From NCBI GenBank assembly GCA_018902385.1, contig JABSSW010000048.1, positions 310,001-374,000 of the forward strand: a stretch of 64,000 bases of DNA. The letters run 5' to 3'. Below, in pieces: positions 2,227-39,081 of this stretch (position 1 is its first letter; each line of letters opens with the position of its first letter). The stretch is from Physcia stellaris. Lineage: Eukaryota; Ascomycota; Lecanoromycetes; Caliciales; Physciaceae. The notes under the pieces are model-generated. The model saw only the letters and a program-made list of their open reading frames with translations. It had not been told where the DNA came from and did not search any database. Position numbers and translations under genes: made by a program.

Positions 2227-5200
2227 AATGTAATAAAAAATTGTTATTTTATCGTAACAACGCGCAAAATTCGAATAATTGTCGTCGTGAACGACGACAA
2301 AAATGTCTTGAATAGTTGATTGAAATATGCAAAAACGATGAAATTCATAAACATGACTGTCAATGATGTAATCGTCAAATCGAAAAATTAATTCGTTTTT
2401 TCGATAGAAAAAAAGCTTGACGACGTTCACGTCGTTTTTATTCTGTTGATCAAATATCGAAAATATCTTTTTTCAATTTAAATCAATGTTGTAATTAGCA
2501 ATAAATTTCTGACGAAAATTTGTTTTCATCTTCACAAAAGCAATAATGAACAAAACATTCAATTCATTTTTTTCAAAAACTGTGTCAATATTAATGTTGA
2601 TTAAACGCGAAAAAACATCAAATACGATGTGCTGTTTGTCTGATTTGTGACGTAATTCAATTTCGAAACGCTGAATGTAATCGAAAACTTTAATGAAACG
2701 TAAATTAAATTTATCAATGAAAACAATAATCAAACTTGTTTGTTTAATTAAATTCAAAATTGCATCGTGATTTGTGAAAATGATTGTAAAACGTTGTTCG
2801 AAAAAATCGACTAAATGTTTTATTTTTTTGAGCATTCAAATTATGTCAATTAATTTCAATTCAATTGATCAATATTTGATTTCGACGTCGATTAAAAGTC
2901 GATTGAGAAACAAAATGAACTCGATAGATTTGCGAAATGAATATTTTTTGTCGTTTCAATTAACATTGTTCTTAACGTGATAAATCATGTCAGTTAATTC
3001 GAATTTCTTGTTAAAATCAAAATTCACGAATAGTTTTTTAACGAAATTCGAATGAACAAAATAAAAAAATTTGATCAATAATGATTGCAAAATCTGAAAA
3101 AAAATTATTTTCTCAAAAATAGAATTTTTGATTCTGATATTGCGAAAATAAATCTTTTTGACATTGTCAATTACAAATTCGTCGTGAAATAATTCAATTT
3201 TCAATTGTTGTAATGATTTGAATATTTCGACGTATCACGACACGTAATCACGTAATCAACTCGTAAATTTTAAATACGTTTCGAATAGTTGAAATGTGAT
3301 AAAAAAAGACAAACGCGAAATAATTTTGAACTTTTTCTCAATTGTGACTAGTTCAAATGAATCGACTTTTTGATCAAACAAATGAACAATGAAATAATCA
3401 ATGAAAATCTTTTCGAACTTGATCGATATGTTGTTAACTCGTAACATGTCGAATATTTTCGTGAAATGTGCGAAATGTTTTTGCAAAATGCTAAAATGAA
3501 TGACAATGTCGTTCACATAAATCTTAACGAAAATTCGATAAAATCGAAAAAGTCGATCGATTTGACGTTGCACATAAGTTGACGAATTCTTGTAATTCAT
3601 CACAATTACATTGAAACTTTTTTGATCGCGATGCGTGATTACGATTAACTTATGTCTATTTTTTGAATGAATTTTTCATTGATAAAAAAAAGTCGAGCAA
3701 TTCAACACGATGATGTATTGACAATCGATAACAACAAAAATAATGTTGAATTGTAAAAATAAAAAATAAACGTTTGATTGAATGATAACATTAAAATCGC
3801 GAATATTTACAATCGAACGATTTTTTTTTGATCATTAATTTCTTTTCATACGCAAAAAACAAAATAATTAAAAAAAATAAATTCGTTTGTTCAATTAAGT
3901 TTGTTTGATTCGTGCAATTTGTCGAAAATTTCATCGACGAACTTTTTATTCTTTTTATTTAATGAATATATTTTAATTTTGTCAAATATTTTTTGTTTTC
4001 AATTTGATTTAAGCGAAATTCTCATTCAATTTTTTTAAGAAAATTGAGCGAAATCGATGTTTGTTCACAAATCGAAATATTCGAAAATCAAAATTGTGAA
4101 AATTTTCACAATCTTTTTGTTAAATCGATAAATAATAACGTCGTTTTCAAAAATAATTTTTGTAATAAATTTCGCAAATTTCATATCAAACGATAAATTT
4201 GAAATTTTTGACGTATCGTTTGCGAAAATTAAAAATTGAAAATCGTTGTAACAAATTGACGAAAATTAAACATTTAATTGAGTGAAAACTTCACGTTGTG
4301 ATAATATGAAATTGTGAAAAATTTTCGAAATCGAAACAACAATAACAAACGTTGATTCAAAAATATTAATTATTATATTGATAACGACGTAAATTGCAAT
4401 TATGATTTTTTTAAATCAATTAATCTTATGTGTTCGAATTGAACGTCGAAAAATTAAATCGACGACGTCGCTAATTTCGTCGACGTGAATCTGAAAAACA
4501 TTGATGAAATCAATTTTAATCATATGATTGACACGACAATTTCGAAATATGTGCACAATTTGATTATTTTTATTGCGAACAACAATGTGTTTGAAAATAA
4601 AATTTACTAAATGAACGTAAAACGAAAAATTAAATTCGTTTGATTCAAACAGATAATTTCGATCAAATGAAACAATAGTGTAATGCATTGAAAAAATCAA
4701 CTCGTTATGCGAAAATATCATTGTGATTTTACGTGCGTGAATTGAAATTTGAATAATCACGCGTGACGTGCGAATTTCGAAATTAACAATGATTTCACAA
4801 TTATCAATGTAAATTGATTTATTCGATATGTTAACGTCGATTTTTTCTGAATCAATAACGTCATTGTTCAACAACATGTTAGTTTTGAAATTATCGACTA
4901 AATGCATTTTTTTAATGATTTTAATTTAATTGTGACGTCATTTTTTTGATCAAAAAAATACATAAATAAAATAACATATTCGATTGTTATATGCTTGTCG
5001 ACATTTAAATCACGTATTGAAATGAATGTAATCATGATTTTAATAAATACATTCGAAATTTGTTTTTTGAAAAATTGACGATCACAAAGAGTTATTTCAA
5101 CGTCGATGTTTAAACAAACAAATTCGACGTCAATTGTAAAAAATAAAATTACATGAATACGCGCGTAATTTCAATTTCGAAAATCATGATCAATGTCGAC

Positions 5201-6425
5201 GTTTTTGCTAAAATCGACATTTGAAACAACGATAGAAATCGATGTAAATTTGAATTTTCTCAGAAAAGTCGAAATGTTGATTGAAAAAATTTCGACGTAT
5301 TTGACAAAATAATAATAAATTCAAACGACGTGATAAATGAATTCGTAAATTCGTCAAACGTAATTGAAAATGAATTCGTAATCGCATCAAAATTGATTGA
5401 CGAAAATTTTCTAATTGAATTTCGCGTAATTACAATGAATTTAAAATTTTGAATAATCATAATGATAAAAAAAACTTGTTAAATACATTTGTGAAATAAA
5501 CAAAAATATCTTGACGCGAACAAATCGATCGAATGTAATCATGAAGTTTGTTGTTAAATGAAAAACTATTGTCACATTTTTTACAAATGACTAATTTGAT
5601 TGACTCAAATAAAAACACTTTTGACGTAATCAAATAAACAACATTGTCGTTTTCATTTTCGAATTCATTGTATGAAACAAATTGATAATAAAAAATGTTT
5701 TCTAAAACATGATAATCGTCAACGTATTGATCGTCAACATCGACGTCGTTTTGATTGAAAAAGTTTTTTTCAAATTCATTTTCAGTCTTTTCGTCAACAT
5801 TGTAAATTTTGATTTTGTCAAACTTTTCAAATTTTTTGACGTTTGACGATTTGTTGACTTTTTGATTCGAAACTGAAACGAATTTGCTTAAGAATTTTAA
5901 CAACAAAAACTGTTTTTCAGTCGACAAAACAACTGAAACGTCGAAAAACTTTTGTTGATAACTTTTTGAAAATTGACGAAATTGATAATTTGATTGAAAT
6001 TGATAAATTGAATTTCTATATTGATATGAATTGTAATTCGAAAACGATCACATATACGCTGAATAGAAAAAATTGACGTAAAATTGTTGATTAAAGTCGT
6101 TTTTATTTCGATTTTGTTTATTTGAACGATTGTTAAATCGATCAACATTATTGCTGAAATTTTGATCAGAATTGTTATTTTGTTCGCGATGACGAACAAT
6201 CATATTCATTCATACGTTTTTCTTCGCATCTAATTGACTTAAGAAAATAAACAAAATAATGTTTTTCGATAATTCAAATATTTGTGCACGAAAATTCAAT
6301 TCAAAATTATTTCATGTCGTAATACATTGATGAAAAACTGATGAAAAATTTGTTGCTTTAACATGTCGAAAAATGTTTTGCATGTAAAAACGTGATTTGC
6401 GATCACGACGAACGTCAACATAAAT
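2227..6425 (-). mobile_element. Old Ty3/Gypsy retrotransposon fossil A, minus strand, cut at both ends
   Basis: Very AT-rich. Minus-strand translations give the Gypsy order: gag C-terminal part with a C2H2-like finger (about 5450-6425), protease-side region (about 4400-5200), reverse transcriptase (about 3250-3660), RNase H (about 2470-3200) and integrase zinc-binding region (about 2240-2430). The integrase is cut at 2227 by the younger element and the gag N-terminal half is cut at 6425 by the LTR of element C. Many breaks; a dead fossil. Age cannot be taken from divergence because the changes look mutation-driven. Confidence 0.85.
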
Positions 6426-6619
6426 TGTTATAACACAAAATCAAATTAAATGATATGAATTTAAATCAAATATTTTGACATGATTTTTGACAAGAATTTT
6501 GTCGTCATTTTATATTAAATGAATGATAATCAAACAATTGATTCGCAATTACTGTACATAAATTGACATTTTGTCGTTCATAATTTTTAAATCAATCAAT
6601 TCACACATTACGTATAACA
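6426..6619 (+). repeat. Left LTR of element C
   Basis: 194 bases, begins TGTTA and ends TAACA. It aligns over its length with 13670-13863, sharing a well-kept central stretch. It is followed by TGATAACATCAT, nearly the same as the sequence after the left LTR of element E, so this is probably a primer-binding site. Confidence 0.8.
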
Positions 6620-9600
6620 ATTGATAACATCATTCAAGCGATAATCTGTACGTAAACAAAACGACATCATTTTTTGTTTTTTAACGTATCAATTTTCGAA
6701 CAGTTTTGCACTCTGTACGCAAGTCATTTGTTCATCAATATTTTTTCGTTGTCGTTGTCGAAAACTTTATTGTTCGCTCGATTCGACGTGTCGATCGAAA
6801 TCAATCATCAACAACAAACATCTAATTGAAAATGAAAATTTCAATCAAATTTTCTCAACTTTTTACAATTTTCAGCAAAAACGATTGATTTTTCATTCAA
6901 ATATTCAAAGCATTTCGATTTTTCGTGAAAATTCGCATTGTTATCGCTCAATGACGACGCATTTGAATATCAATTTATCATCGAATTTTTGTTTGATTCG
7001 AACAATTCAATTCAACGATTTTATTTGTTTTTTTATCAACAAATAATTTGTTCAACAAATTTTGAAAATTTCAATTCGTTTTTTTTTGTTTTGTTTATCA
7101 TCATTTTATTTCAAATTTCAATACGACACATTATTTTCATTTAAATCATTTTGATTGTTTTCATATCACAAATCATTCGCATTGCGTTTGAATTATTCGA
7201 TTACATCGATACAATTGATTCAATTTATTTTGTCAATACATTTCGACAAAAATTATTGTGAACAATATCGTAATTAATTGTTTTAAATCAATATCGTTGT
7301 CAATTATTAATCATTCAATTTCGACAAACATTGTTTATTCAACAAAATAAATCGTCGACAAAATTCGTTTTCGCAAAAATTTTAAAGTTTTCGTGATCGT
7401 CATCGAAACGTATCGAAACAATTAATCATTTTTCGATTGAATTAATGATCGAATTACGTCATTCATTTTTGATTTAAAATCGACGATTGCAAATATTTTT
7501 TTTGATATTTTTTACGTTCATTTTTCGAAAAATTTACGTCGTAAATTTCAAATCATTTCGTCGACGTCGTTTTTTCAACGACGAAACAACATCATAATTT
7601 CGCTGAACATCATTTTTCGAAACACAAAAAATATCGAATTTATTTTCGCATTCAATTCAAATATGACGAACGAAAATAACAATTGACAAAACATGAAATT
7701 TACGCAACAACAATGACAAATTTTTCAAACATTGATTACAGATGTTCGAAACGATGTTCAAACAAAATTTCAAAAATTCGTCGAATCATCAAATTCAATC
7801 GAATTTTTTGACAATGATGATGACGTCAAATGAAATGTTCAAAAAACGAATTTTTTTGATTCGTGATACGAAAAAAAAACGTCATTACAAACAATTCGAT
7901 CGAACATTCGAGCAAAAATACATATTTTCGAAATGTTCATTTTTACATTGAAAAAATCAAAAATATGACGTTGTTCAAAAATGTCGACGTGATTCGAACA
8001 AATTTTTATAATTGCATGCGTAATCACGCGTTACGTTAATACACAAAAATAATCAACGATGATCAAAAACGATTGATCAAATTCGAAAATGACGTAAAAA
8101 AATGAAAACGTTTGTTGTTAAAACGTTATAAAAAATCGTCGTCAACGACGTTGACGATCATCACGAAAAAAAAATACACGATAAAAAATATTCGTCGACA
8201 TCGCGAATCATTCGATTTCGTTGAAATTATAATCAAAAAAATTAAATCGACAATGATGTCAATTTATTCGCAATTGTATTTAATTTACAATAAATTGAAA
8301 TTGAAATTTCGACGAAACTTGATCAAATCGACAAAAAAAATTACAATGAATGAATTTTTTCAACAATTTGATGATAAAAAAAAATATAATGAAACATCGA
8401 AAATCGATATCGATTTTATTATTCGTTCGAAAACGAACGTCGTTTTCAATTCATTTATCGTTTTCAATTATCAATTTTGTCAACATCATTCGATTCGTAT
8501 AATATTTTTTTTGCTATTAATGAACGTGTAAATTACGAAAATTTCAATGAATTTTTTTCGCAATTTCGTCAAATTCAATATTCGACATCGTATCAATTTG
8601 AAAAACAAAATAACGTTTACATTTTTCAACAACGTTCATATCAATCAAATTATTCAAATCGACAACAATCGACACAAAATATGCAAAAACGTTCATACGA
8701 AAATCAACAATATCGATTTCAACAAACGCAACAAAACGAAATTCAAAAAAATCGAAACACGTTCGATTTGCGATTTCAATATTCGCAATTTTTACGTTTA
8801 AATAATTATTTTGTTGATTTTTCAATATTATTTTCGTTTTCGTTAAAACAAAATATTTATTTCAATCAAAATAAAACGTTTAATCAAAATGAAACATTAT
8901 ATCGACGAACGTATTTTGCGAAAAAAAAAACAAAAAACAATTATTCAAACGACGAAAAAAATTATCAAAATGATCACAACATGAATACTGAAAACGCGTC
9001 AAAAATATTTATGATAAATGATGAATATCATGACGAAAAACATTTCGAAACTCAAAAATTTAATGAAAATTATGTGATTCATGAATCATTCGAATATTTT
9101 GTGAATATTTCAATCAAACAAACAAAAATTTATTTATGCAAACGTTGTCAATCGAAATTTTATTTTAATAACAAATTTCATCGACATTTGCGTTCGTGTC
9201 AAACAATTTTGATTAAATTTGACACATCGTCGACGAAAAATGTTCATAATTATCAAACATTTATCATACAATCAAATGTCAAAACAAATACACGATTCAA
9301 TTTCGAATTTCGTTCGTAACGTTACGTTACGATGAAAACAAACATAAAACAATTTTTTATTGATATGTGCGTCGATATCGAATACGATGCATTTTTAATC
9401 GATCGTAAATTTTTGATGTAAAAAATATTTGATTACAAAACACATGCGCGACAAATCATGAAATTTTTCAAAATTCGCGATATCGAAAATGTCGTCGTCA
9501 TAACAATTGATTATATTTCATTAATTTTTCGTGTTTTTGAAATTTCGATTGATGACGAAAATGCGATTGTCACGTTCATTCGACAAATTTACATAATAAA

Positions 9601-12600
9601 AAAATTGAAAACAAAATTTTTTTTAAACAATGATATATTGAATTCAAAACAAATAAATATAAATGTAAACAAACAAATCGTCATTATAGAAAATTGCAAA
9701 AATATACGAATTAAATTAAATGTCATTAATCAAAATTCACAAATCAAACGCGTTGTTCGTGTTAACGAAATTATTAAAATTTCAATCAAATCAATTTTTA
9801 CAATTTTTTTCAAATTACGTGACAAAAATAATTTGTTTATTGAACGCGATTTTATGTTCACGTTTTCACGAATTGAACGATTAAATCAAAATGAAAACGT
9901 ATTTTTCATATCATTGATACATATACAGAAATGATTCAAATTCACAACATCAATTTTGAAAATGTTTACATTTTCAAAAATACGCGTCTTGAATTTCGTA
10001 CAAAAATACGAAAAAAAATTTATTTAATTAATTCGAAATACGTTCATTTAATTGTTAATGTTCATAAATTTATTTTTAAAAATTGATTCAAACAAATTAT
10101 GAAATTTGATGTTTCGATTTTGATCGTTGACGCGATTATCGCGATTAATTATGAAAATTTGCACGATGCGATCGCGATTAATTTCGTCGCAAATTTGATT
10201 AATTTTGCGTTTAATTTTGCACTCAATTTTAACGATTTTATTGTTGTAAATTTTAATATTAATGCGAAAAAAATTTTGTTTGTTGAAATTATTGTTTACG
10301 ATGACGTTAACGTTCGAATTAAGTTTGTAAACGTTGCGTTAAATTATTCAAAATTATGAAACGATAATGAATTTACGATGAAAATTTCGAAAAATGAATG
10401 AATGTCAATCGAATTGAAATTTGACGTCAAAATCGAAACAACAAAAATGTATTCGTTTGATTTCGCAAACAGAAAATTTGTAAACGAAATTTTTGACAAA
10501 TTACATGCACAAAATCGCATGAAATACATCAATCAATTTATTTCGCATGACTATTTTGTTTTCGCAATATGAAAAACAATATTTGAATCGAATGATTCAA
10601 AATGCAAAAAACGAATCGTCGTAAATATACGCGAATTAAACAAAATTATTTTTATCGATTTTTATTTTATGTTTTTTCAATCAAATATTATTGCAATCGT
10701 CGTCGAATGCAAATTCATTCTTGTTTTCGACGCAACGAATTTTTTTTATCAATGATTAATAAAGTTTGCAAACAAATATAAATTTATCGTCGTTTTTAAC
10801 AAAAAACAAAAACAATTTAACGTTGCGATGATGAATTTCAAAAATTCATTTTCGTACGTACAAAAACGAATCGATTTCATTTTTTGAAATTTTCGCAAAT
10901 TTGTTCGTGTTTACGTAAACGACATTGTCGTTTTATATTTTTGAAAAATATATGATTCATTTACATTCGATATTCGAACGATTAAATATTTATGAAATTA
11001 ATTTGTCGTCGAAAAAATCATTTTTCGATTATTTTACGATCGCATTTCTTGATCAAAAAATTGACGTTTTTGATTTCATTATCGCAATCGATAAATTGAA
11101 AACAATAATCAAATTGAATTTTTTTTATATTTTGAAAAATTTGAAAATTTATTTAAATTTAATAAAATGATTACGAAATTTTGTCGCGTTTTATGTTCAA
11201 AAAACGAACGCGTTACAACGTCGTAAAATTTTATTTTTACGTCAATTATCGTTCAACAAAAAAATCATTCGCAAAATTTATTCGCAAAAAATTGTAATGA
11301 ACAATTTTTCAATTGAAAAATCAAAATCATATCGATTATTGCAAAAAACTTTTAACAAAATTTCATTTTTGATACATTTCAATTTCGATCGAAAATTGTA
11401 CATCGACATCGACGCGTTTAAACGACGCGAATTCGACGCGATAATTTATCATTTCAAAACAAACAATAATTCAAACAAATTCAAACGTAACGATATCGAA
11501 TTCATTTTATTTTTAAATCGAATATTGAACGAAATCGAAATCGAATATTGATTTATCGAATTCGAAATGTGTGATTTAATATGAATTGTCAAAAAAATTC
11601 GACATATGATAAAAACAATCAAAAATATTATTGTTGTATTCACGAATCATGTCGTTAATATTTTTATCGTTAAACAAATCACGATGAATTCGAACAACAT
11701 CGATAAATTCAACTTTCGTTTTGTTTGTGTTTCAATTTATTTGTTACAATTTTAATTGAAAATAAAATATAAATTAATAAAAAATCATGTTGTTTCGAAT
11801 GCGTTATCAAAATTAACGTTTGAAAATAAACAAATGAACAAAAATTCAAAAAATAAATTTGATTTGAACACATATCATGACGAAATAATCGATTTTTCGA
11901 ATAATTTCGATTGTTACGTTTTTCAAAACATTTTTATTGTCATGTCGAAAAATTTAAAAAAAAAATCAAAAACGAATATAAAAAAAAACATAACGAAACA
12001 TAATCGAAATGTTAAAATCGTTGACGATTCGAATGCAAAAAAAAACAAAAATTGTCGATTCGAAATTTCCAAATTTCATCGTCGTTCGAAAACAACGTAA
12101 CGAAACGAAACGTCAATGAGCAAAAAAATGACGATACGAAATTTATATCAAAAAATTCAAAACAAAAATCAATTTCGCGTTGAATACGAATGACATTATA
12201 TATCATGTTAACATTGACACGCGTCGATTGTGTATATTTGTCGTTGTGAAACGCGAAATATTTCGTTTAATTCACGATCAAAATCATCATTCGAAAATTC
12301 ATCGATGTTATAACAAAATTTTCAATACGTTATACATATTTCGATTTTCGCGAAAAATCAAAAAATATATCGAGCATTGTTTTATTTGTCAATTAACACA
12401 AATTAAACGTCATCGATTTTACGAAAAAATTGATGTTTATCACATTCGTTTCGCGTTCGTTTCATATCATTGTCATTGATTTCATTTTAATTATGTTTGA
12501 CGAAATGAACATTGTTATGTTCGCAATTTGTAAACATTTTTGTCGAATTTCATTGATTTTCGACAAAAAAATTTATGAAACGAAAAAATGAATCAACGCG

Positions 12601-13669
12601 TTATTGAACAAATTGTTAATAATCGATTGAAAAATGTTTGAAATTATAATTTCAAATCGAAATTCAAAATTCATGTCGAATTTTTGATAAATGTTTTTCA
12701 TTAAATTAAACACGAAATTGTTAATTTCAATGACATATCATTCGCAAACGAACGATTCGTCAAAACGAATCAATCAAATTGTTGAAATTGTTATCAAATA
12801 TTTCGTCATCGAATTTTCGAACATCGATTACATTTTAATTTTTTTGCAATTCAAATTCAATTAAACAACACGTTTAACATCGTTACAAATTTATCATTCA
12901 ATAAAATCATATACGAATTCAAAATCAAAAACGCGATATCAAATTTAATCGAATTTAACACAACAAATGTATAAAATTTGTCAATTCAACGCATGAAATA
13001 TCAGCGAAAAATTGTCGATATCACAAATTTTACAATTGTCAAAATCAAAATATATCATGATTCACGTCATATTTTTATTCGATTAAAACAAAATGAAAAA
13101 ATCTATTTACAATTCAATAAAAATTACAAATTGTTTGACAAATCAAATTCGAAACTATTTCAACAATGTTGCGAATCATTTCGAATTTTTGAACGCATCG
13201 AACGTTTAACGTATCGATTGAAATTGTCATCAACATAACGAATTTATTTCGTTGTGTTTATTGCACAATTCGAATCAACATTTGTCGAAATTGATTTTTA
13301 CAATCGTTCGCGTTTTCATTATTTTGATTTCATTGAAATCGAAAACGATACGAATCAATACAAATTTTATGAAATTGAAAAACTAATCGAAAAGCAAACT
13401 AGAAAATACAACAAAATTCTCGTAATTCAATATTTAATCAGATGAATCGATTATGAGTCGAAATATAACGAATAACGATTTATTTTCGAATTACAAAATT
13501 TTCAAAATTTTATTGAATAATACGAATTCAATCATTCGCAAAATTCTGATGATCGCAACGACAAAAAAAACGAAAAAAAAATAAATTGATGCATAATATG
13601 ATTACGCATAATAATAAAACATGAAATTCAATGAAAACATTGATTTTTTTGTTTTTTTTATTAACAGAT

Positions 13670-13863
13670 TGTTATGACGCAAAACTAAATTAAATGATTT
13701 GAAATTAAATTTAATATTTTTGCAAAACATTTGACAAAAGTTTTATTATCATTTCATATTAAATGAATGATGATCAAACAATTGACTCGCAATTACTGTA
13801 CATAAATTGACATTTTGTCGTTCATAATTTCTAAATAAATCAATCGACATATCACGTTTAACA
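13670..13863 (+). repeat. Right LTR of element C
   Basis: 194 bases, the same length and ends as the left copy. The two differ by transversions as well as transitions, more than the LTR pair of element E. A T-rich tract precedes it. Confidence 0.8.
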
Positions 13864-16800
13864 CATGAATTCGTTTGATTTAACAATTTTGTCATTTACA
13901 TTTCGCACAAATATAAATGAAATTAATTTTTGCATCGATACATTAAATAATAATTGTGTGAAAAATTTGCGATCAATCATAATAACAAAACAGTCAATAT
14001 CGATGCATATTTTGATGTTTTCGATGTTACTATTTAATTTAACAATAATTTGATCGTATTGATATTCGCGAAAAACGTAATCAGAATTAATTTCGTCAAA
14101 ACGTACAATAAATTGAATAACGCGACGATTGATTGAAAAAAAAAAAAAAACGTGTAAAAATTCGTAAATTTTTTGCGAAAAATCTTAATGTTTGACGTAA
14201 ACGAAAATGATAATTTTATTATTGATACAACGTGATCAGCGTGCAATACAATGTGATCGTGCATTGTTGCGTGATTGACGTGTTCAAACGTGTCAAAAAA
14301 TCAACACGCATTGCGTAAATGTTTGAATAATTGATTTTTAAACGTAAAAATATTGTTACAATGAATACAATTGTGTGCATCAATGTTGATTTTTGTAACA
14401 AATGAAAAAAAATTGACATTTTGTGCAATTTCAACGTTTTGATTGTAATCATCGAATAAATCTGATTAATCATCGTAAACGAACACGCTGTCGTCAATAT
14501 TTTGATATTCAGATAATCAATGAACATCGCTAATATCATTTATGTAATTATTTTCATTCGTTTCATCAAACACGTTGATTTGATACGTTGTTTGAAAATG
14601 TTGTACGTATTCATCATAATCATTATAATCGTTTCGTTGAATATTGTTGAACGATTTAAAAGATTGTCGTGATAACATAAATTGTTGTTGATTCGAATTT
14701 GACGCGTTGACGTTTGTTGAATCGATTGTAATTTGTAATCGATTCGATGAAATAAACAACGTGCGAACGTTTGAATATTGATTTTTTTGATTGTTTGAAT
14801 AGTCGATTTGATAATCAATTGATTTGTAAATTTGATATTTTGTTTGCTGATAATTCTGACGAAATTGAATAAATTGATTTTGATAAACAATATTCGAATA
14901 ACGAGATTGAAAAAATTGTCGTTGAAACGATTGAAATTGAAATGATTGTCGTTGAAATTGCGATTGACGATTGTTATTATATTAATCGAATTGTGATGAA
15001 CGAACATTCTGTCTAAATAATTAATTACGATTATTTTGAGTATTGATATTGCTGCGTAATTTAGCAATTTTAATTTATCAATCGTGTTTGAATTCGTTTA
15101 TATCGTTAAACATTTCGTTGATAATAATATAACTTTTAAAACGACGTAACGTATCAATTCGTATATCAATGTCGATATCATTATAAATGAAATCGAGTTG
15201 ATTGAATACGTTAATCATGTCAATATTTTTGACTAATCGAATGATTTCTTGTGCGTATTCACGAAATTCACGTTGTACAACGACATTTCTTTGTGTGTAA
15301 CGTTGTTGCATTAAATTATTTATGACAACGTTAATAAATTGTTTGAATTTATTGTGCAACAAGTTAATTCATTCAAACAATTCTTTTTGTTTAATTATAA
15401 TTATTTTAATCATTCGACGCTCGACGTCAAACAATTCATTTGTTCATCATTTCAACGCAATATTCTTTAAATTAAATCATAAATTGTTTTTAAATAGTTG
15501 TTCGTTACGTGTAAAAATCATTTTTTTGCTCGTACAATGAATAAATATACGTTTCGAAAATATGTATCTTTATCAATGTTAACGATAAAATTTGTTTCGT
15601 TAACAAGCGATTTGTCATCGTATTAAAAATCGAAAAAATCGAAATTTGCAAAATTTCATTTGATATTGTTGTTAATATTATCATTTTGATTTGATGATTT
15701 TGAAAAATCAAATAAATCAAATGATTCAACGTTATTATCGTTATCATCACGTTCACGAAATATAATTTGAATAATTTCGCGTACAATGATTGCAATAATA
15801 CGTTGTTGTTTCACAATGAAATCGATCATATTGCGTGCTGATTGTGATTTAATGAATTCGTGATAAATAATTTCGTCAACAAACGTAACGTTTGTAACAC
15901 GTCGAAAAAACGAATTCATCACAGACGAATAATTTGATGTTTGTAACGAAACAAAGCGTAAATCGAAACGAATAAAAACGTTTTTCGTGTTGATCATTGA
16001 TTTGTTTCGACGTAATATTCGTGAAATTCTGACAAAAAAATTCTGTGATTTTTGTGACAGTTTTGATTTGAATAATATGTCATTGAACGAGTTATGCGAA
16101 AACGTCACAAAATTGTTAATCGTTGAACGTTGACGTTTTTTAATTAATTTTTGAAAATATTTCGAATTACAATAAATTGTAATAACGTTGCAAAAGTTTC
16201 GAACGATTTTAACAAATACACGAAATTGTTTTCAATTCGTAAATCAGTCAGAAAATTTTTTGAAATCGAATCTAAATCGAAAAAATTGAAATCGTAAATC
16301 AATTGATTTAATTGAATTGAATACAATGTTCAAAACAATAATTTTTGTTTCAAATGCTTCGAGTGATCACGATACGTTTGCAAAAATTTTGAAATCGTAC
16401 AGTTTGAACGTTCTGCTGACTATATTCGAATTTATTGAAAAAAATGTCAGTTTGGAAAATTGATAACAAAACAAACGAAATAAAAATCAGAAAAATGTAC
16501 GATAATCAGCGTGCGAATTGCAAAATACAAACGAACGTGCTAAAAATAAAATATAACAACAAACAAACTGAAACAAACGAATGTATTATAGCAAACGAAT
16601 TGAAACAAACGAATATAATACAACAAATAACGAATGATAAAATTGCGAATGAAATGAAAACAAAAAAAAGAAAAAAATAAAGAAAAAAAATCTTTTGAAC
16701 AATTCATTTTATTATCATCTGTGACAAATGCATGCAAATGCGAAATTTTCTGTTCAATGATCGAAAAATACGCACGTTTGAAATAACGAATTGTTGACGT

Positions 16801-17300
16801 ATTCGTTTCACAAAGCAAAAAAACAATTAATTGATAAATAATCATTCACTTTTGAGCAAAATTCGATGCTTGATGAAATAAATAAATCAGATTGTTAATA
16901 TTGTTGACGACGACGATTATATTGATTATCTGTAATCAATGTAAACAGCTCGTAAATCACGTGCAAATCAAATTGCAATACAAAATCAAATACAAAAAAA
17001 TTGCAACAAAACGAAAAAACGAGCGAACGAATTGATGTTTGATTGATCGAATGTGTCGAATCGTTTGATATTGATTTTGATGTTAATATGTTAACAAACA
17101 AATATTAAAAAAACATTTGATCAATTTGTTAGCAATCGAATGATGCAAAGCAAAATTTGATGATGTTATCATATGTTATGATACAGATGTTTGTAATGTA
17201 AAAAAAATGAATTGATTAATTAAAAGAAACTGCTAACTAAATATTACACGTGTTAAGATATTATGATTTCGAAACAATCATTTAATCATTTAATTAGCTA
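13864..17300 (-). mobile_element. Old Ty3/Gypsy fossil D, gag and start of protease, minus strand
   Basis: Minus-strand translations show a gag region (about 16100 to 14300) with a Gln/Asn-rich part (14520-14990), a C2H2-like finger (about 14340-14420) and the start of an aspartic protease domain (about 13870-13990). The protease stops where element C begins; no pol follows. It is a different copy from A, because A begins in gag rather than continuing this protease. The right edge is approximate and its LTR was not found with confidence. Many breaks. Confidence 0.65.
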
Positions 17301-18293
17301 TGTCAGTGTCATAACAGCGAATTAGAAAATTGAAAAAACGAATTTCGAAAATTTCGAAAATTTCGAGTTTTGCGAAAACAATATCGCGATCATACACTGT
17401 TGCAAAAATTTCGAATTCGAACGAATTGACTTTTTTGTAATAATCTCGATTTCATTGATCGAAAACGACAATGTATTTAGCATGCGAATTGATTTGATGA
17501 ATATATAATGAAATTTTGATGCGAAACGCACTCAAAAATGATTTTATTTTTATTTTTTTGATATTCGAAAGTTTTGCTTTCGTAATTCGAAAATTCTAAT
17601 TTCAGCAAAAGAATTGCACGCAATAGAAAAAAATGTGCAAATAGCGATTTTTCAAATATAAAATAAATAATACATTAAATGAAATTACATATCGTTAATT
17701 TCATTTCTTTTTTGATGTTCGATTTCTGAACGAGCGAAAAGATTTCGCAGAAATAATTCTTGAGAAATTGAATGATAATAATATGACTTTATCGAGCACT
17801 GTTTTAAAACAATGCAATAATTGCACGAACGCAAAGATCTTGATGATTGATCGAATTAGAAATAACATATTTAGATAGATAAAATAGTCAATTTATCTTA
17901 ACGAAATCATCTGAATTCTGACATTCGTAATGTTATCGTAATAGATTATTGTCACTGTTTACGAACGATTTGAACGTATTTACAATATAATTATCAAGAT
18001 ATCGTAATATTTACACAACGTAATTAAAATGTAATCGTTATTTTCAACATACAGTACAAATGTTGTAATTGCATATTGACGTAAATTTTTTAAACAACGT
18101 TCGATAATTGTCACGAAATTTTTAAATTGCGTTAGTTATTTTTCACGCAATGATATTTATACGTTTCGATAAATTAACATAACGACGTGTTCACGTTTTC
18201 AATGTTTTACTGTAACGATTTATGAACGTTTTTAGAAATTTAACGTAATCATTCAGTGTTAACAACGTGATCGTAATGTTACTGTTAAACGCG
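17301..18293. other. AT-rich spacer, no gene seen
   Basis: Nothing recognisable. It may be the outer part of element D or mutated flanking DNA. It holds more CpT and ApG than the interior of element C, so it is less saturated. Confidence 0.5.
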
Positions 18294-18298
18294 AAATT

Positions 18299-18459
18299 TG
18301 TTACGATAAATCTTCACATAAAGCTGAAATCAAAATATCTTGATCAAAATGAATTAACGTCTTGACAGTCTGATTCATATTTCGCATTCTGTTTTTTAGA
18401 TAGTAAGAATTCAATTATTTCAATCATCACATTATTGATTCATGCATTTTGTTTTAACA
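18299..18459 (+). repeat. Left LTR of element E
   Basis: 161 bases, TGTTAC start and TAACA end, preceded by AAATT. It is followed by TGATAACATCAT, the likely primer-binding site shared with element C. Confidence 0.85.
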
Positions 18460-21400
18460 AATGATAACATCATCATGTTAACGATTTCTTGATTTTTATC
18501 GTCAAGACGAATATATTTGTTTTGCAAAAGAGCAAAACTAATTTCGTTGCGAAATAACATATCGCAAAACATTTTCGCGAAGCAAATATCGCACAGCGAA
18601 GAAATATCGCATAACGAAAAATCATTTCGTACAACGACGAAGATATCGCATAATCAAAATCAACATTAAATAAAATCAACAATTTTGAAAGATTTGCAAC
18701 GTGCGAAATTCAAAACAATAACATCTCAAATCAATATTTCACTCATTCGATTTTTTTATTCGAATTTTTCAGAAACAGCATTTTCAAATTTGTATACGAT
18801 TCGAAATGATAGTCGATTCGATTTGCACGTATTAAAAGCATAAACGATCGAAAATTCGAATCGAATATTCAGTTTGACACGATCGACAATTTCGTGTTTA
18901 AATTTGATAGTTTTTCAATCAATCAACGTTCAAACATGATTTTTGTCGCTGTCAATTTGCGAACATTTGCAAGTATTCGTCATTTTTTTTTATCACGAAT
19001 CGAAGAAAACGATCAGAAATTTCATCATTTTTTACATTTCGAACGTTTTGAACGTTTTTTTTACATCAATGTTGTTTTCGAGTTTTTTCAATCTTTTCGT
19101 AAAATTTTTATTTTGAATCAATTCGAGCAAATTCGTTTTTTCAAAATTATATCGACAATTCAACAATTTATGAACGAACACATTGATCGATTGTACGATA
19201 ATCAAATCGAATTGCAATATCGTTTCGAATTTTTCGAAAACGTCGACAAATATCAAATGATCACGAAAAATGACATCATTGCAATGCGCGATGATTTCAT
19301 CGTGTTTCAATCTTTCGTGCAACGTAACATGAGCGAAATAATGATCAAAATGAATAGAATGAACAAAAACAATGCAAAATTCGAAAATTTTGTTTCATTT
19401 TTGATGATTTTCGAGAAATTAAAAAAATCATTAACAAAAGCAAAAGATTTGCATCAGAATAAATTTATTTTTTTATCTTTTTCAACGAAACTGATCATTA
19501 GCAAAAGCATTGAAATGATCAAAATCTCACTTTTTTTGAAATAACGAAAATAAATCATCAAAAAATGTCTGATTCACAGCGAAATCGATTATTTTTCCGA
19601 ATCAATCTCAAGTCATTGTTCGAAAATAATGAATTTTACAACGAAAAATATCATGATCGTTTCATGATTCGCAATCAATCACGACGTCGAAATCACGAAT
19701 TTCGCGTAATTTCGCAAACAATTCTGTTTATTCAGCACGAAAATCGTGTCGTTATTGTCAGATTCGATCAATTCAAAATTTCAAATCTCGACTTTTTTTA
19801 TTTCGAATATTTTAAGAATCAGAAATCGATCGATTATGTGATTGAAAAAAAGAAAATCATTTATATCGACGTTCACATGTTTGTTGAAACTGTACGTCGA
19901 TTTATTGCGAACAAAAATATTTTGAACATTTACATTTTTGTTTGAAAAATACAATTCAGATTTGATACATCGTTTTGAATTTTGTCAAACGCGACGATTT
20001 TATGTTTTCGATGAAAATTTTCTGTTTCATTTTTATTACTCGTTACGAAAATCATTCAACAAATTCGTATGTTAAGTTTCAAATTCAACAATACATCGTT
20101 CGTGACGCTCAAAAGCGACGTCAATTTGACGAATATGTGAGCATTTTAATGCGTCATGACGTTTTTTTTCATGCATTCGAATTAATCGTTTTCACGAAAA
20201 TTTGAATTTCGTTGAATAAGAAATTTCGCAAACACGTTCGAAAATTTGACAAAAACATCAAAACTGAAAAATTCATTAAAGATTTCGAAGATGTCGCGAA
20301 TTATTATGTTAACGATTTGAAGAAAAATGCGATCGAAATCGCATATCAACGTGAAATGAAATCGAAACAAATTCAAAATTTTGAGCGTTTTGATCGATAT
20401 TCAGAATCATATTTTGAAAGTTATTCAACAAATTATTTTTTCAAATTTCAAAATTTTCAATCGTTACGCAATTGACAAGCATTTTCACGAATTTTTTTTT
20501 TTCGCAATATGCATCATTTTCACAGCGAACATCGCAATATTCATCGCAAAATTAAACTTTTACGCAAAATTCATTTCAACAACGTATCTTTCAGTATTTT
20601 ACGCGTTCAATTCAATATTTTTTTTTTCAACAAGATCAGAAGTTGCTCACAAACAATGTTAATTACAATGCGTTTATATCGTTTTTTCACGAGCAGTACG
20701 ACGACAATTCAGACAACGAATATGAAAAAAAACAATTAGTCAATGAGAATATCAAATACGAAATTTTTGAAATGACAAATTTCGATGATATCATCATTTT
20801 TTTTCATGTTGAAACATTTGAACTCGAAATTTTCAACGATAAAATATACATTCGTCATGATATAACATCATTATTTTGCAATATTTGCAAAAAAAATTAT
20901 TTCAATAACGATGATCGTGTTCGTCTGAATAATCATATGTTTAATATTCATGATGTTGACATCAAGTCAAATCAAACAATGAATAAAAAACGATACATCA
21001 ATTAAATGAAACATGCAATTTTGCATGTAATCATTATTCGTGAATCGTCGTCAAAACGTGAATATGTCATTATTCAAACGCGATTGTATGATGAAAACAA
21101 CGAAAATATATTTGTTTGCATCGACATCGATTTCAGCGTCAATTTCATTGACGAATTTTTATTTTTTCAGAATATTAATTTGTGAAATCGTTTGCATAAT
21201 TGTCATTCAATTATTGTACGCGATATTGCAAATCAACGCATTGTTGACAAACAAATGAATATATCATTGTACATCACGATCATCGATGATTTTGTAAAGC
21301 GACTGAAAATCAAAACATACGTCAATAAAGATATTCAAGCGAACGTCATTTTCGATATGAACGAATTCGATAAAATCGAAAACGATATAGCAATTTGATT

Positions 21401-22025
21401 AGATCGCAAAAAAATGCAATTGAATAATTGTCATGTGATCATCAATTTCACATTAAAAAAAAATCAATCAGTGATTTTTTTCGCAAATGCAACATCACGA
21501 AGCGTTTATACAAATCGTCGATTATGCATTAAATCGTTCGATGACAAATGTTCGAAAAATCTGTACGTTTCGAAACGACAAAAATAATGATCAAAATTTC
21601 ATACAAATCGATTCGTTTTTCAAACAGCATTTCGCAAATCAAATCGATCAAATTCGAAAAATTTCAAGCAATGTATGATTCGAATATTGCGAAAATAAAT
21701 CGTCATGCAATTGCACGAAATTTCGTTTCGAATTTCGCAAATATTTTCATTTTTTCATTTCATCAACGAGTTGAATTTACGAGTTTCAATTGACGTGTTC
21801 GTTTTAATATTTCGAATTTTTTCAAACGTTTCACGACGACTTTTGTTCAGAAAAATCGTCGTCGCGATTTCGACGATTCGTGAAAAAAGTTGAGCAATTA
21901 ATGAAAAATCAAATTATTTTTTTATTTTTTTACTTGTATTATTAATAGATTTCTCGATGAACGAGTCGAATGTTTTCGTCACGCAACACAACGAGAACGT
22001 TGTGATTTTTTCGCTCGATGACATC

Positions 22026-22186
22026 TGTTACGATAAATTTTCACATAGAACTGAAATCAAAATATCTTGATCAGAATGAACTAGCGTTTTGACAGTCTAA
22101 CTCATATTTCGCATTTTGTTTACTAGATAGTAAAAATTCAACTATTTCAATCATCACATCATTGATTCATGCATTTTGCTTTAACA
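22026..22186 (+). repeat. Right LTR of element E
   Basis: 161 bases, followed by AAATT. It differs from the left copy at roughly 15-20 sites, nearly all C/T or G/A transitions, as expected if directed mutation rather than clock-like decay made the differences. Confidence 0.85.
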
Positions 22187-22191
22187 AAATT

Positions 22192-22670
22192 TATCGAATA
22201 AACACGATTTGATCAAAACAACTCAAATTTATCATATAGAAACTGTCAAGTCTTGTCAAGTTTTGTCAACGAAATTCTCGTCATGTTATGATTTTCAACA
22301 TCATGATATTTCTGATTTCGAATTCGTGCGATTCGATCAAAATTTACGCGAAGACGTTATGCGCGAATATTCGCGTGCATAATGATTGATGATTGATTGA
22401 TTGATTAATTGAATGCTTGAATCAAGATTCTGAAATTCAGAAAACGCACTAGTGTATTTTACGCGTAAAAAATTCTGATTAACAGTAATTTTACGATAAA
22501 CTTCGAATAACGATAAATTTCGAGTAACAATAAACGAAAATAAAACGTTTATACAAAACTACGATAACAAATTTAAACGTTACAACACTTTGACACGTTT
22601 CAAATGTATTACGATGAGAAATTAACACGTAATAAATTTTTAAACGTTAATCATTACAAAACGTATCATT
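22192..22670. other. AT-rich edge of the repeat block
   Basis: No gene or element seen. Composition returns to normal quite sharply near 22670. Confidence 0.5.
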
Positions 22671-23514
22671 ATGGGAATCGTCTACAGGCATGGCTGTTTA
22701 GAAATTACGTTAAATGGTATTTACGATAATGGCGCGGAACTATTACGGTAGTCAGGATGCATATAATTTCGTTAAGGAGTACTGGTACTTACTTACTAAA
22801 TAAGGTAATTTACCTGGCTCAACTGCAACGGTAACAAAAGATAGGGGTATCATCATACAACTTCAGCACCACTTCACGGTTGTACATGCTATCGTATTGG
22901 GTTTTGCGTGAATAGACCAATTGCATTGATATCGGTGTAGAGGGGGCTCGATTTTCTACCTAACAACAGGGCCTCGACCAATCAGATGAGGCCTGCACGG
23001 TCGCAATGATTATCCCCCTTGTTCGCCTGCTCCTTATCCTCCACATACCTTTCACCGTCTAGCCAGTCTTCGCCCGCTTGTTGATGTTTGCATTGGTGTT
23101 GATCTTCCGTTCGCGTCCGGTGGTGGTTCGCATTGAATTGATGACCATTTCCCCCCTCCAACGGCGGCGGAGGCATGGCATCGGGGGTCGTTTTCGACTC
23201 ATACTCGCTAACAGTGAAAGGCCCCGTGGCCGTATCAGGAGGAGCAGCCATATCAGGGGTCTGAATCGCGATGCAGGTGGGTAGGTAGGTAAAATCGAGC
23301 ATTGGGGACCGTATGCTGCAGGCCGGAGTTGCCGGATATAAAGGTCTTGGCAAGTCCAGATAGCGATCTCAAGTCCGGATAGGCGCTCCCCAAATTGAAC
23401 TTCAACCTCAAATACATGCATTCGTTATGATCGTTCAACACCGAGCCACACCTAACTGTTCTTAGTCAAGACCATCGATACCATATCCTTTGATTGTCTT
23501 GAAAAAGGACACGC
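22671..23514. other. Intergenic between the AT-rich block and SKI8
   Basis: Normal base composition. Short overlapping open frames exist on both strands (for example 22982-23421), but none shows a recognisable domain or convincing splice structure. It probably holds the SKI8 3' untranslated region. Confidence 0.5.
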
Positions 23515-34614: not shown

Positions 34615-34688
34615 ACTATGGCAGTCAGGTAAAGCGATTAAGAGAGCTCACTAGACAACAAACTTTAGCAGGGCGGCGAAGGTGAATA

Positions 34689-34789
34689 CAGTCGTTTTAA
34701 AAAAGGTTGGCGGTCGCGCGGGCCGAGGTTGGGAGTTTCCCCACCACACACCAAAATTGGGTGAGAGGTCTGGAAAATCTCATCGTCAT
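34689..34789 (+). repeat. Left terminal inverted repeat, nearly unmutated
   Basis: 101 bases, GC-balanced, pairing with 38774-38874. It differs from the right copy at 15 positions, all transitions; in 14 the left copy has the G or C. The AT-rich state begins just inside it. Confidence 0.9.
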
Positions 34790-37700
34790 GTAGAATAGTC
34801 ATTATATCGTAATAAAATTTTGTATAATTTTTTTTGATGTTGCATTTTTTCAGTTTGTGATTTTTTCTGTCGTCGTTATGATATTTTCATTGAACGACAC
34901 TGTTCGTGCGAACGTTCAGTATTATTTCGATATCGACAAAAATCATTGATACGTTTTGAATCACATCAACATTAATTTGCGTCAAACGAAGCGAATGTAT
35001 AGCAATTGAAAACAATGAAAAAAATAATTGATTTTTACACGAAATTTTTTGATCGTTTTGTCGTATTGCAACAAAAACATTTCGACGTTTTTTTGAAATA
35101 CGTTGCGATCAAATTTTCAATTTATTTGAACGAATTGATTTGATTTTTGTACGATAATTTCGATTTCGTTGTTTGTGAAATCACAATTTGAAACAATCTG
35201 AAACGTTTAGAATGAAACAAGAAGAAATTTTTCAAAATAATCGCAAAACGCAACGTCGCATTTCGTGCTGAATGAACGTTGAAATTTATTCGTTGAACGA
35301 TCAAATAATTAATTTTTATCGACGAGTTTGCTGTCAACGAGCGTACGAACGATAAAAAAACGAATTGATTTTTTGTTAAAACATCGTTTTATGTAATTCA
35401 TGAATTTCAACGAAACAAAAGATGAAATATTTTATCGATTTTCACAATTGATGATTACATAATTCATTTAATACATCATGACAGCATTATCGTCGTTATT
35501 TTCAACGATTTCATTCGATACAATGTTTTTTTTCAATGCTTCATCGACGAAATGAATTTTCGAAATGTGTTCATCATGAATAACGTCAAAATATATCGCA
35601 ATGACGAGTTGCGAACGATGTGCGTCGAAATCAACGTTCAATTTGAATATTTATTTTCGTATTTTTTCGATTACAATTTTATCGAGATTTTTTTCGTCAT
35701 TTTGAAAATTTGAATCAAAAGAAACATATATTTGACGAAGACATACACGATAAAATTTGAAAATTTCGATCAATTTCTGAACGATGCGATGCAGAAAATG
35801 CAACGAATGCAAACGATCAGCAAAAATAATAAAAAAATTTTTGACAATTTGTTTCGTTTTGCAAACATTGTTTATTCGTAACATGCAAATCATAACAATA
35901 AAATTCAAATCGTAATATGTTTGCAAAGCGATAAAAATCGTTTTTTCAACATGAAATATGTGTCATTATTGCGTGAAAATGAATAAATCAATTTTAAACA
36001 CGTGATTTTTCGACGCGTTGATTTAGAATTATGCGATATCGAAATCAAATTCGCGTCGATTTTGAAAATACATTGACGAAAAAAATTTAACGTGAAAAAT
36101 TCTGATATTGATCATGTTACGTTGCAAAAATTTCGAATTCGAACGTTTTTATTTAAGTGCTGATTATCAAAAAAAAATTGCTATTTGTATGATAAAACAT
36201 GCATTTTTTTTTGTCAAATCTCGTTTGTTAATTTTTCAAATCGTTTTTCACACGATTTTGAATGAAATAAAAATTTTCGTCAATATTTTTTTTTATTTTA
36301 ACATTTTGCGTTTCGTTTTTATCAATCGACGATTCAGACGATTTTGATACAAATTGTCGATTAACAAATTGTCGTGAAAATTTTTGCGATTGTTGTTTTC
36401 GACGTCAATTTTCGAAAATTTTGATTTTACGATTGAATTGCATTTTTATGAAAAATTTCGACATATCGACATTCATTCATGTTTTAATACGAGCGAATGC
36501 AAATTGAATTTTGCTGTACGCATGAAATTCATCGAAATTCATATCGAGCGTATGTTTTCAAAAATCAAAATTATCGACATAATTTTGTTGTTTCGACGAT
36601 TCACGAATAATCATTCAATTTACGTATTCGTTTAACGAAATTTCATTTTTCATCGAATTGTTTCGTATCGAATCTGAAATTTTCGAAACAAAAGTTTTTT
36701 TGAAAAAAAAAACATTTCGTTCGATTCGTTTTCGTCATTCGTGCTCAACAAATCAATCGATATTTTTCGATTGAAATGTTTTTTTTTGAATTTACGACGA
36801 TTTTTGACACGTTCATTGTGCAAAACACGAACATTTTTTTTTGTTGTTGTTTCAAAAAGTGAATTATCATGATCGACGTCATTTCAATTGCATTCGAAAC
36901 AGAAACAAAAAAATTTTTTTTTTTACGATTGCTTTGAATTTTTTATTTTCAATACGTTTCATTTTATCGTCACGTTTTTTTCATTGAAGCAACATTGATT
37001 TAAACGATTTGTTGATATTGACGTCGTTTGAATTTTCATCAATAATTCGTTGTTACGTTTTAAATTTCATTTCGATGACTGACATATAACGTTGAATATC
37101 GAAATCAATATAACAATATTTTGTTTTTGACGAGTTTTTGCAATTTCGAAATTTGCAAATATGCTTGTTTTGCAAAATCGTTATTTTGTTGTCAAATTCA
37201 ATTTTATCGAACGTTTTTTCGATCAATTGTTGAAACATTTGAGAAATTGTTGATTTTTTCGTTTCAGAAACAGACGCATTTGCTTTATTTTTAATTTTCG
37301 ATTTTTTTTTGTTGATTTCATTCGTCGCAACGACGATGACAATGACGATTTGTTGTTGAGTTTGAACGTCAGAAAAAACAATATCGTTCACATATTTCGA
37401 AAAGCGATAATTTAACAGCAAAACAAAATTTTTTTTTGAATCGTTTCGTGTGCAACGAGTTTTCAAACGAGTTTCTGTCTTTCAAAAAAAATTTTCGTTT
37501 GTGAAATTCGAAAATATTCGATCAGTAATTTTCAAACGATCAAATATAACGACGATGATTATGCTAATTATATGATAAATTAATTTTGTTTTATTTGTTT
37601 TTTTTTTGCGATATTTGTAATTCAATTTTTTTGAAACGTTCAGTTTAAATTCACGATCGAATCAGTGTTTTCAAATTTGATTATAAATGCATCATTAAAC

Positions 37701-38773
37701 ATTTTTTTATCGTCGAAGAAGATTTTCGATCGAAGTTCAAATTCGAAAAATTGATCGAGAATAAAACGAATTGATTGAATTGCAGCGAAAATGATTGATC
37801 GATTTGTAACAATTGATTTCGATTCGATTGCAAATTCGAAAAATAATTTTGAAAATAATTTTGAAAATGATTTTGAAAATGACGAAACGTGTAATTTTTC
37901 GAACGATTTCATGTCAAAAGATCGTTCAAATGCGTTTTTTTGACGTGTTTTTCGAACATTTTTGAGTTTTTTGAAAATTCGAATTCAAAAAAAATAAACG
38001 AAAAATCAAACGAAATATCGACGTTCAAATTACTTTGAGATTGATTTTCAATATTGACGAAAATGAAATATCGAGTTTTAAACTATTTTGAGTCAGAAAT
38101 TTCAATATTGACGAAAACGAAAATACATCGTTTTGTTTGTAATATTCAAGCAATTAAGTCATTTGCTGTTGAATCATTGATGAAAACGAAAAAAAATCGT
38201 TCGAAAATTTCAAATTCGTCTCATTTCGATTTAAATTTTTCGAAATATCGTTCATTGTATCGAACAATTTTTGAAATTGCACGTTTTCAAAATATCGATT
38301 TTGAGAATCAAAATTATCGTATTTCATGACACGAAAATCAGATTTAAAATACAGTTTCTTTTTGAGCGCTTTTTTGAAAATTTTCGATTTCAATAAAAAT
38401 TTCATTTCGTTCACGACGAGAAATTTGAACGATATCGACGTTTGCAAATCTCGTCGATTTGTTGATAAAACGTTTCGAGAAATTTTTTTTTTTTTTTTTT
38501 TCGCGAAATTCGCAGAAATCTTTTTCGATACGAAAGCAATGAATTTGAGTTTCGATTGTTTCAATATGAATTCATTCAATTGAATCGACAATTTTTTTTT
38601 GTGTAACGACGAAAAAATTTCATCAAACGTCGATTGGATCGAATTCGTGAACTTGATGAATTTGATTTTGAAAAACATATTGCGAATCACGATTCGAAAA
38701 CTCAACATCACGAAAATTATACAAAATGAAATTATTACGAATTATTTACATATTGTTATTGAAACGAAATCGA

Positions 38774-38874
38774 ATGACGATGAGACTTTTTAGATTTCTC
38801 ATTCAATTTTGATGTGTGGTGAAAAAACTCTCAATTTCGGCCCGCGCGATCGCCAACCTTTTTTAAAACGACTG
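38774..38874 (-). repeat. Right terminal inverted repeat, mutated
   Basis: 101 bases. Compared with the left copy, runs of C become T except the last C before A, and runs of G become A except the first G after T or C. Confidence 0.9.
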
Positions 38875-39081
38875 TACCCCAATTTAGGTATAGAACTAGC
38901 GTAATACAGTACTCCGTACAACCTTAATCTTCCAACTTAAGCTGAAGGAGTGACCACGAAAACCTACTTAGTAATCACTATTCAAACAGTTCACTCTCCT
39001 TACTGACCGTTTGACAGTCAACCGGACCTTGATTTGTTCCATCACGTTGCTGCGCTAACAACATGCTGATATACCAGGTGC

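Follow-up and report, generated by a model that had tools for sequence, protein, structure and literature searches.

The DNA analysed in this study is a stretch of 64,000 nucleotides (the window) from the ascomycete Physcia stellaris (GenBank assembly GCA_018902385.1, contig JABSSW010000048.1, positions 310,001 to 374,000), in which host genes flank two AT-rich tracts of dead transposons, the second being the interior of a DNA transposon bounded by terminal inverted repeats (TIRs). Both tracts are sharp-edged and have undergone C-to-T change on both strands, complete at CpC, at approximately 70–90% of CpT, and with little or no change at CpA and CpG. Repeat-induced point mutation (RIP) prefers CpA in most fungi (PMC2621366, PMC6300479; statements from these and the other papers cited refer to the excerpts available).

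Composition and edges of the hypermutated tracts

Tract 1 (20,444 bp) has a GC content of 0.263, against 0.491 for the host DNA of the window, and outside both tracts the window is normal, with a GC content of around 49%. The counts in tract 1 are CC 2, GG 1, CT 225, AG 226, CA 1358, TG 1234 and CG 1167, corresponding to observed/expected ratios of 0.01, 0.00, 0.23, 0.22, 1.29, 1.33 and 3.30, respectively (0.94, 0.94, 1.08, 1.06, 1.09, 1.11 and 0.88 in the host parts of the window). The three CpC and GpG compare with a mean of 710 and a minimum of 633 in 200 shuffles of the same bases. CpA, TpG and CpG stand above expectation because C and G became rare, their densities per kb being close to those of the host (66.3 vs 66.7 for CpA, 57.1 vs 53.3 for CpG and 60.6 vs 71.1 for TpG). 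Tract 2 contains CC 0, GG 1, CT 31 and AG 64. The preliminary description of this DNA, made from the letters alone, had held that CpA is not depleted in the way that CpC and CpT are, something that the count of all 16 dinucleotides in both tracts against host DNA supports, and it had described positions 8581–8880 as free of CpC, CpT, GpG and ApG with CpA plentiful; the recount gave zero for each of the four and 30 CA.

The base 3' of the cytosine decides its loss, whilst the 5' base has a weak, modulating effect. Of the cytosines in tract 1 (both strands), 91.6% stand before A or G, compared with 49.8% in the host, and the 5' base of the surviving cytosines is A at a frequency of 0.36, G at 0.22 and T at 0.42. 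TpC is kept (66.6/kb vs 70.9/kb in the host) while CpT is lost, which again identifies the 3' base as decisive, and the two strands behave alike (CC 2 and GG 1, CT 225 and AG 226). An earlier suggestion that CTG/CAG is partly spared did not hold, since surviving CpT is followed by G at a frequency of 0.29, against 0.26 in the host, and CTG is therefore not special. The three surviving CC/GG of tract 1 (12069, 16454 and 19597) all lie within TTTCC(A/G)AA, one of them on the opposite strand, and may be later T-to-C changes. CpG stands at host density in the dead transposons of tract 1, so there is no trace of decay by CpG methylation.

The CC/GG nearest to tract 1 lie at 2212 on its left and at 22673 on its right. 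The longest run free of CC/GG is 9,857 bp, whereas the longest outside both tracts is 86 bp, and 200-bp windows with CC+GG ≤3 occur solely at 2251–22650 and 34801–38800. At both ends of the TIR element the change starts inside the element without reaching the flanks, and host dinucleotides are unchanged again directly beside this transposon. Edges inside the element are what repeat-directed mutation predicts, and a bias of the region would run on past them.

The tracts are not mutated evenly. Within element B, positions 7227–13226 contain 1–4 CpT+ApG per 500 bp, compared with 6–28 in the rest of tract 1, and CpA+TpG there still amounts to 47–68 per 500 bp. Across the more and less affected elements, therefore, the same order holds throughout, with CpC lost before CpT, and CpA and CpG far behind. 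This CpT-saturated stretch may have passed through more rounds of mutation or may be of greater age.

As was anticipated in the preliminary description, the standard RIP indices pass over both tracts. Windows were scored as RIP-positive at TpA/ApT ≥ 0.89 and (CpA+TpG)/(ApC+GpT) ≤ 1.03, thresholds given in PMC3897900. In tract 1, 0 of 39 windows of 1000 bp and 3 of 203 windows of 200 bp were positive; the corresponding values were 0 of 6 and 0 of 38 in tract 2, and 1 of 48 windows of 1000 bp in the host control. With 1.1 and 0.75, which are alternative thresholds for these indices, 0 of 39 and 0 of 6 windows of 1000 bp were likewise positive.

Table 1. Features of the window (LTR, long terminal repeat; E, expectation value in the Pfam scan).
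Feature	Position	Strand	Remarks
Hypermutated tract 1	2227..22670	.	CpC/GpG nearly gone, CpT/ApG lowered, CpA/CpG at host density
Reverse transcriptase fragment, Ty3-type	3259..3675	-	RVT_1, E 6.1e-5, below cut-off
Left LTR-like repeat, element B	6426..6619	+	TGTTAT...ATAACA
Possible RNase H fragment	11171..11548	+	RT_RNaseH_2, E 0.033, weak
Integrase zinc-binding fragment, element B	12132..12476	+	Integrase_H2C2, E 3.8e-9, above cut-off
Right LTR-like repeat, element B	13670..13863	+	No target-site duplication seen
Left LTR, element C	18299..18459	+	5-bp duplication AAATT at 18294-18298
Right LTR, element C	22026..22186	+	AAATT at 22187-22191
TIR DNA transposon, 4,186 bp	34689..38874	+	Inverted arms of 103 bp; TA on both sides (34687-34688, 38875-38876); DDE_3 domain
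Left TIR arm (with TA)	34687..34789	+	Essentially unmutated; pre-mutation state
Hypermutated tract 2, interior of TIR transposon	34790..38773	.	From dinucleotide counts
Transposase fragment, DDE_3	35426..35710	+	Pfam E 2.8e-4, below curated cut-off
Right TIR arm (with TA)	38774..38876	-	Mutated from its position 27 inwards

Direct comparison of repeat copies and a model of the loss

Five repeat pairs within the window were aligned, among which the arms of the TIR transposon and the LTRs of element C were informative and the LTR-like repeats of element B less so. With the left TIR arm as reference and 101 positions scored, the right arm is changed at 11 of 18 CpC, 2 of 8 CpT, 1 of 13 CpA and 0 of 14 CpG sites, or at 13 of 26 cytosines before a pyrimidine (CpY) but 1 of 27 before a purine (CpR; Fisher p=1.3e-4). 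These are 14 C-to-T or G-to-A changes, and there is one further difference, in the opposite direction. The two LTRs of element C differ at 14 of 20 CpT, 2 of 26 CpA and 0 of 6 CpG sites (p=1.9e-6), with two transversions; CpC cannot vary in this pair, because it is gone from both copies. These two comparisons provide both the direction and the context of the change, so that the interpretation does not depend on composition alone. They also agree, together with the dinucleotide counts, with the original proposal that C is lost before C or T and kept before A or G, and the proposed confinement of C-to-T loss on both strands to transposon tracts is likewise upheld by the paired arms and LTRs and by the restriction of CC/GG-poor windows to these tracts.

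A single rule reproduces most of the composition. When C is converted to T at every CpC and at 85% of CpT on both strands of the window's host DNA, all other bases staying as they are (the CpY rule), GC content falls from 0.491 to 0.264, close to the value observed in tract 1. With tract 1 taken as 2227–22100 in these fits, the root-mean-square deviation over the 16 dinucleotide densities is 8.9/kb for the CpY rule, compared with 27.4 for uniform loss of C, 56.9 for classic CpA RIP and 52.1 for unchanged host DNA. In fits to separate segments, in which CpC loss was fixed at 1 and the ancestor was assumed to be host-like, the losses were 0–0.05 for CpG, 0.6–0.85 for CpT and 0–0.2 for CpA, the last being 0–0.05 in element C and the TIR element, 0.1 in elements A and B, and 0.2 in 13864–18298 and the 484-bp end piece.

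Some of these results sit uneasily with a rule that spares CpA. Three of the six segments fit best with a CpA loss of 10–20%, as does the short 484-bp segment, with 20%; since the ancestor was assumed to be host-like, this may reflect ancestral composition, the age of the copies or a genuine activity of minor extent. TpA in tract 1 stands at 64.8/kb, 17/kb above the 47.4 of the pure model, though it is not raised in the TIR element (47.7/kb). One of the 14 changes between the TIR arms is at CpA. The LTR pair of element B lacks a clean CpT bias (CpT 4 of 5, CpA 7 of 31, CpG 1 of 7, p=0.017), and with 11 transversions this pair is older. Finally, transitions in the diverged pairs 2822/11494 and 7826/15518 are mostly at CpA and CpG, something that is expected from their age (14 and 17 transversions) and does not discriminate.

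Transposon remains, coding frames and flanking genes

Plausible transposon domains were found in 4 of 20 tract open reading frames (ORFs) scanned against Pfam (RVT_1, a weak RT_RNaseH_2, Integrase_H2C2 and DDE_3), of which only Integrase_H2C2 passes Pfam's own cut-off. Low scores are to be expected for proteins without Pro, Gly and Trp. Matches to efb-c (inside the reverse transcriptase ORF), Teneurin_ABD and bCoV_NS6, with E values of 0.01–0.05, were taken as chance. The reverse transcriptase fragment aligns to the Ty3 reverse transcriptase (4ol8, E 3.8e-4; 7q5b, E 1.7e-3) and reads YVND, where solved relatives have YVDD or YLDD. A minus-strand frame at 2227–2472, truncated by the left edge of tract 1, resembles an integrase zinc domain by eye. 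Element B (6426–13863) ends in TGTTAT...ATAACA/TTAACA, and the 5-mers flanking it differ (TAAAT and CATGA), unlike those of element C.

After the left LTRs of elements B and C the sequence is TGATAACATCAT. Primer-binding sites normally start with TGG, and TGATAACATCAT at this position fits a change of TGG to TGA, as the CpY rule predicts.

Searches for relatives elsewhere returned no confirmed match. In a viral contig collection, which says little about fungi, there were seven pattern stretches each for the reverse transcriptase and the integrase fragment, and none was confirmed; the same applies to 93 stretches for the reverse transcriptase fragment in prokaryotic genome contigs, equally uninformative on fungi, and an exact 22-base TIR pattern had no match in either of these non-fungal collections. 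The integrase fragment had no match in the Protein Data Bank (PDB) at E up to 1, and Rfam gave none.

The CpY rule has a particular effect on coding sequence. Pro (CCN), Gly (GGN) and Trp (TGG) codons would disappear under it, and new stop codons would chiefly be TGA arising from TGG. Pro, Gly and Trp are absent from all 3,637 amino acids of the 25 ORFs of at least 100 amino acids in tract 1, and from the 554 amino acids of four such ORFs in tract 2, compared with 6.5%, 5.9% and 1.1%, respectively, in host ORFs. The longest open frame in the tracts is 308 amino acids, beyond the maximum of 190 reached in 50 second-order Markov simulations, so these are old coding frames, interrupted under the CpY rule chiefly by TGA. 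TAG is rare in them, at 0–8 per frame, and as CAA and CGA codons survive, dead frames remain fairly long.

Nine of the ten flanking ORFs that were scanned carry recognisable domains (septin, guanylate kinase, aspartyl protease, Rad52, UBX, fatty acid desaturase, M24 peptidase, porin and asparagine synthase), and these domain-bearing ORFs are eukaryotic housekeeping genes. The appearance of the genes, taken with the type of mutation, would suit a filamentous ascomycete. The methionine aminopeptidase 2 among the flanking genes has 8onz as its best PDB match; a search for its relatives in the viral contig collection, which is of little relevance to fungi, gave 14 pattern stretches, none confirmed. 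Neither RID nor DIM-2 is among the ten flanking ORFs of the window. Host DNA at 1500–1766 contains an imperfect direct repeat, with copies at 1500–1607 and 1660–1766 that are 76% identical.

Mechanism and relation to known systems

The tracts are probably transposon copies mutated by a repeat-directed, RIP-type C-to-T system that prefers a 3' pyrimidine, in the order CpC >> CpT >>> CpA, CpG. Sequence duplication would direct the targeting, as it does in RIP, and the catalyst may be a relative of the RID- or DIM-2-type cytosine-5 methyltransferases with a target pocket that reads the 3' pyrimidine. CpN-reading methyltransferases depend on the 3' neighbour, and the combination of a decisive 3' base with both strands affected is the frame of the RID and DIM-2 class, which favours RIP with a changed specificity. 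A dedicated DNA cytosine deaminase, not related to RID or DIM-2 and acting at CpY on either strand of DNA that is duplicated or heterochromatic, would equally leave C-to-T changes under a strict dinucleotide rule with both strands alike. Known deaminase families, however, mostly read the 5' neighbour, and to our knowledge none acts as a fungal repeat mutator, whereas here the 3' neighbour is decisive (A or G follows 91.6% of the Cs that remain) and the 5' base only modulates; such an enzyme is considered an unlikely source. It is more doubtful still that an ordinary RIP enzyme mutates all cytosines whilst CpA and CpG are shielded, for instance by methylation already in place or by a protein bound to them. 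Shielding would give the same end pattern, with CpG and CpA at host density, but CpG and CpA that are methylated for long should decay to TpG and TpA, and since CpG is not depleted (57.1 vs 53.3/kb, fitted loss 0–0.05), decay by methylation is disfavoured. Moreover, after the brief exposure of the partly mutated TIR arm, only 1 of 27 CpR sites had changed.

AT-rich elements do exist, and no unmutated full copy is seen in the window, so that elements which were always poor in CpC and CpT, or which drifted there untargeted, might be considered; yet the left TIR arm has abundant CpC (18 scored sites over its 103 bp), 11 of which are lost in its partner, a finding that already contradicts a slow bias, and with normal host DNA adjoining the tracts and a single arm change in the opposite direction, this explanation is very improbable. 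Hardly credible is an artefact of assembly or library preparation, such as chemically converted reads in the contig. C-to-T conversion is the hallmark of converted libraries, but conversion would also change unmethylated CpA, and the change observed is limited to transposon tracts, has edges within the TIR pair, is present on both strands and passes over two of the four contexts. CpA RIP followed by long decay was ruled out by the dinucleotide model fit, and ultraviolet dipyrimidine damage by the retention of TpC. Editing of complementary DNA was ruled out as both strands are mutated; nor do the tracts have the single affected strand and 5' rule of APOBEC-like editing, as the strands are alike, TpC is kept and CpT is lost.

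The tracts share much with the RID-dependent, CpA-directed RIP of Neurospora and most Pezizomycotina, namely C:G to T:A change on both strands, confinement to repeats and AT-rich dead transposons, edges at the repeat, and intact host genes. They differ in that Neurospora-type RIP prefers CpA, whereas here CpA is spared (1 of 13 sites in the TIR arms, 2 of 26 in LTR pair C, host density overall and negative indices) and CpC is gone entirely. In Magnaporthe oryzae and Botrytis cinerea (T4), CpT is a further RIP target or even the predominant one, and it is strong in alignments of Neurospora Tad1 (PMC4352252, PMC2621366, PMC7882544, PMC10998396); a CpT component has also been described in Sclerotinia, Anisogramma and the RIP-capable controls of van Wyk. 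In these fungi, as here, the change of CpT to TpT is a true target, but there it accompanies CpA, whilst in the present tracts CpA is nearly untouched and CpC is ahead of CpT. The term 'inverted context' used previously is thus apt for CpA and CpC, but less so for CpT, since RIP at this dinucleotide has been described from other fungi.

CpG-type mutation of repeats, known from Microbotryum, Tuber and the MATE element of A. nidulans (PMC2621366, PMC4352252) and resembling methylation induced premeiotically (MIP), is similarly a repeat-directed C-to-T loss under a rule other than CpA. Its target is the opposite one, however, as the CpG loss expected of a Masc2/MIP-like process is not seen here (observed/expected 3.30, density at host level, 0 of 14 sites in the TIR arms and 0 of 6 in LTR pair C). 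Depletion of CpC next to that of CpA is mentioned for S. nodorum (PMC2621366), and a double change, CpC to TpT, is noted in RIP regions of Monilinia, which share this change with the Physcia tracts but differ in the classical CpA to TpA change and CpG loss that accompany it. In the excerpts of the literature available, no CpC-led, CpA-sparing case was found, and CpC is not named as a leading RIP target, though the doublet survey of Clutterbuck (2011) might contain one.

On balance, it is considered likely that a RIP-type defence exists in fungi in which the target rule is swapped, C being attacked before a pyrimidine and not before A, by a cytosine enzyme whose specificity has changed or is independent. 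A k-mer survey of 1,239 species concluded that RIP-like defences share the CpA preference (PMC12543289, 2025); the tracts would be an exception to this, and one that indices based on CpA do not flag. If this is true, surveys of fungal genomes may understate how common such systems are, since these escape the indices in use. The logic of inactivation would also be altered, working through loss of Pro, Gly and Trp and through TGA stops, and not through TAA or TAG derived from Gln codons. A natural system that keeps CpA and CpG and clears CpC and CpT would give RID and DIM-2 a counterpart of opposite specificity for comparison, and the choice of cytosine by RIP enzymes would become testable through enzyme swaps in laboratory Neurospora.

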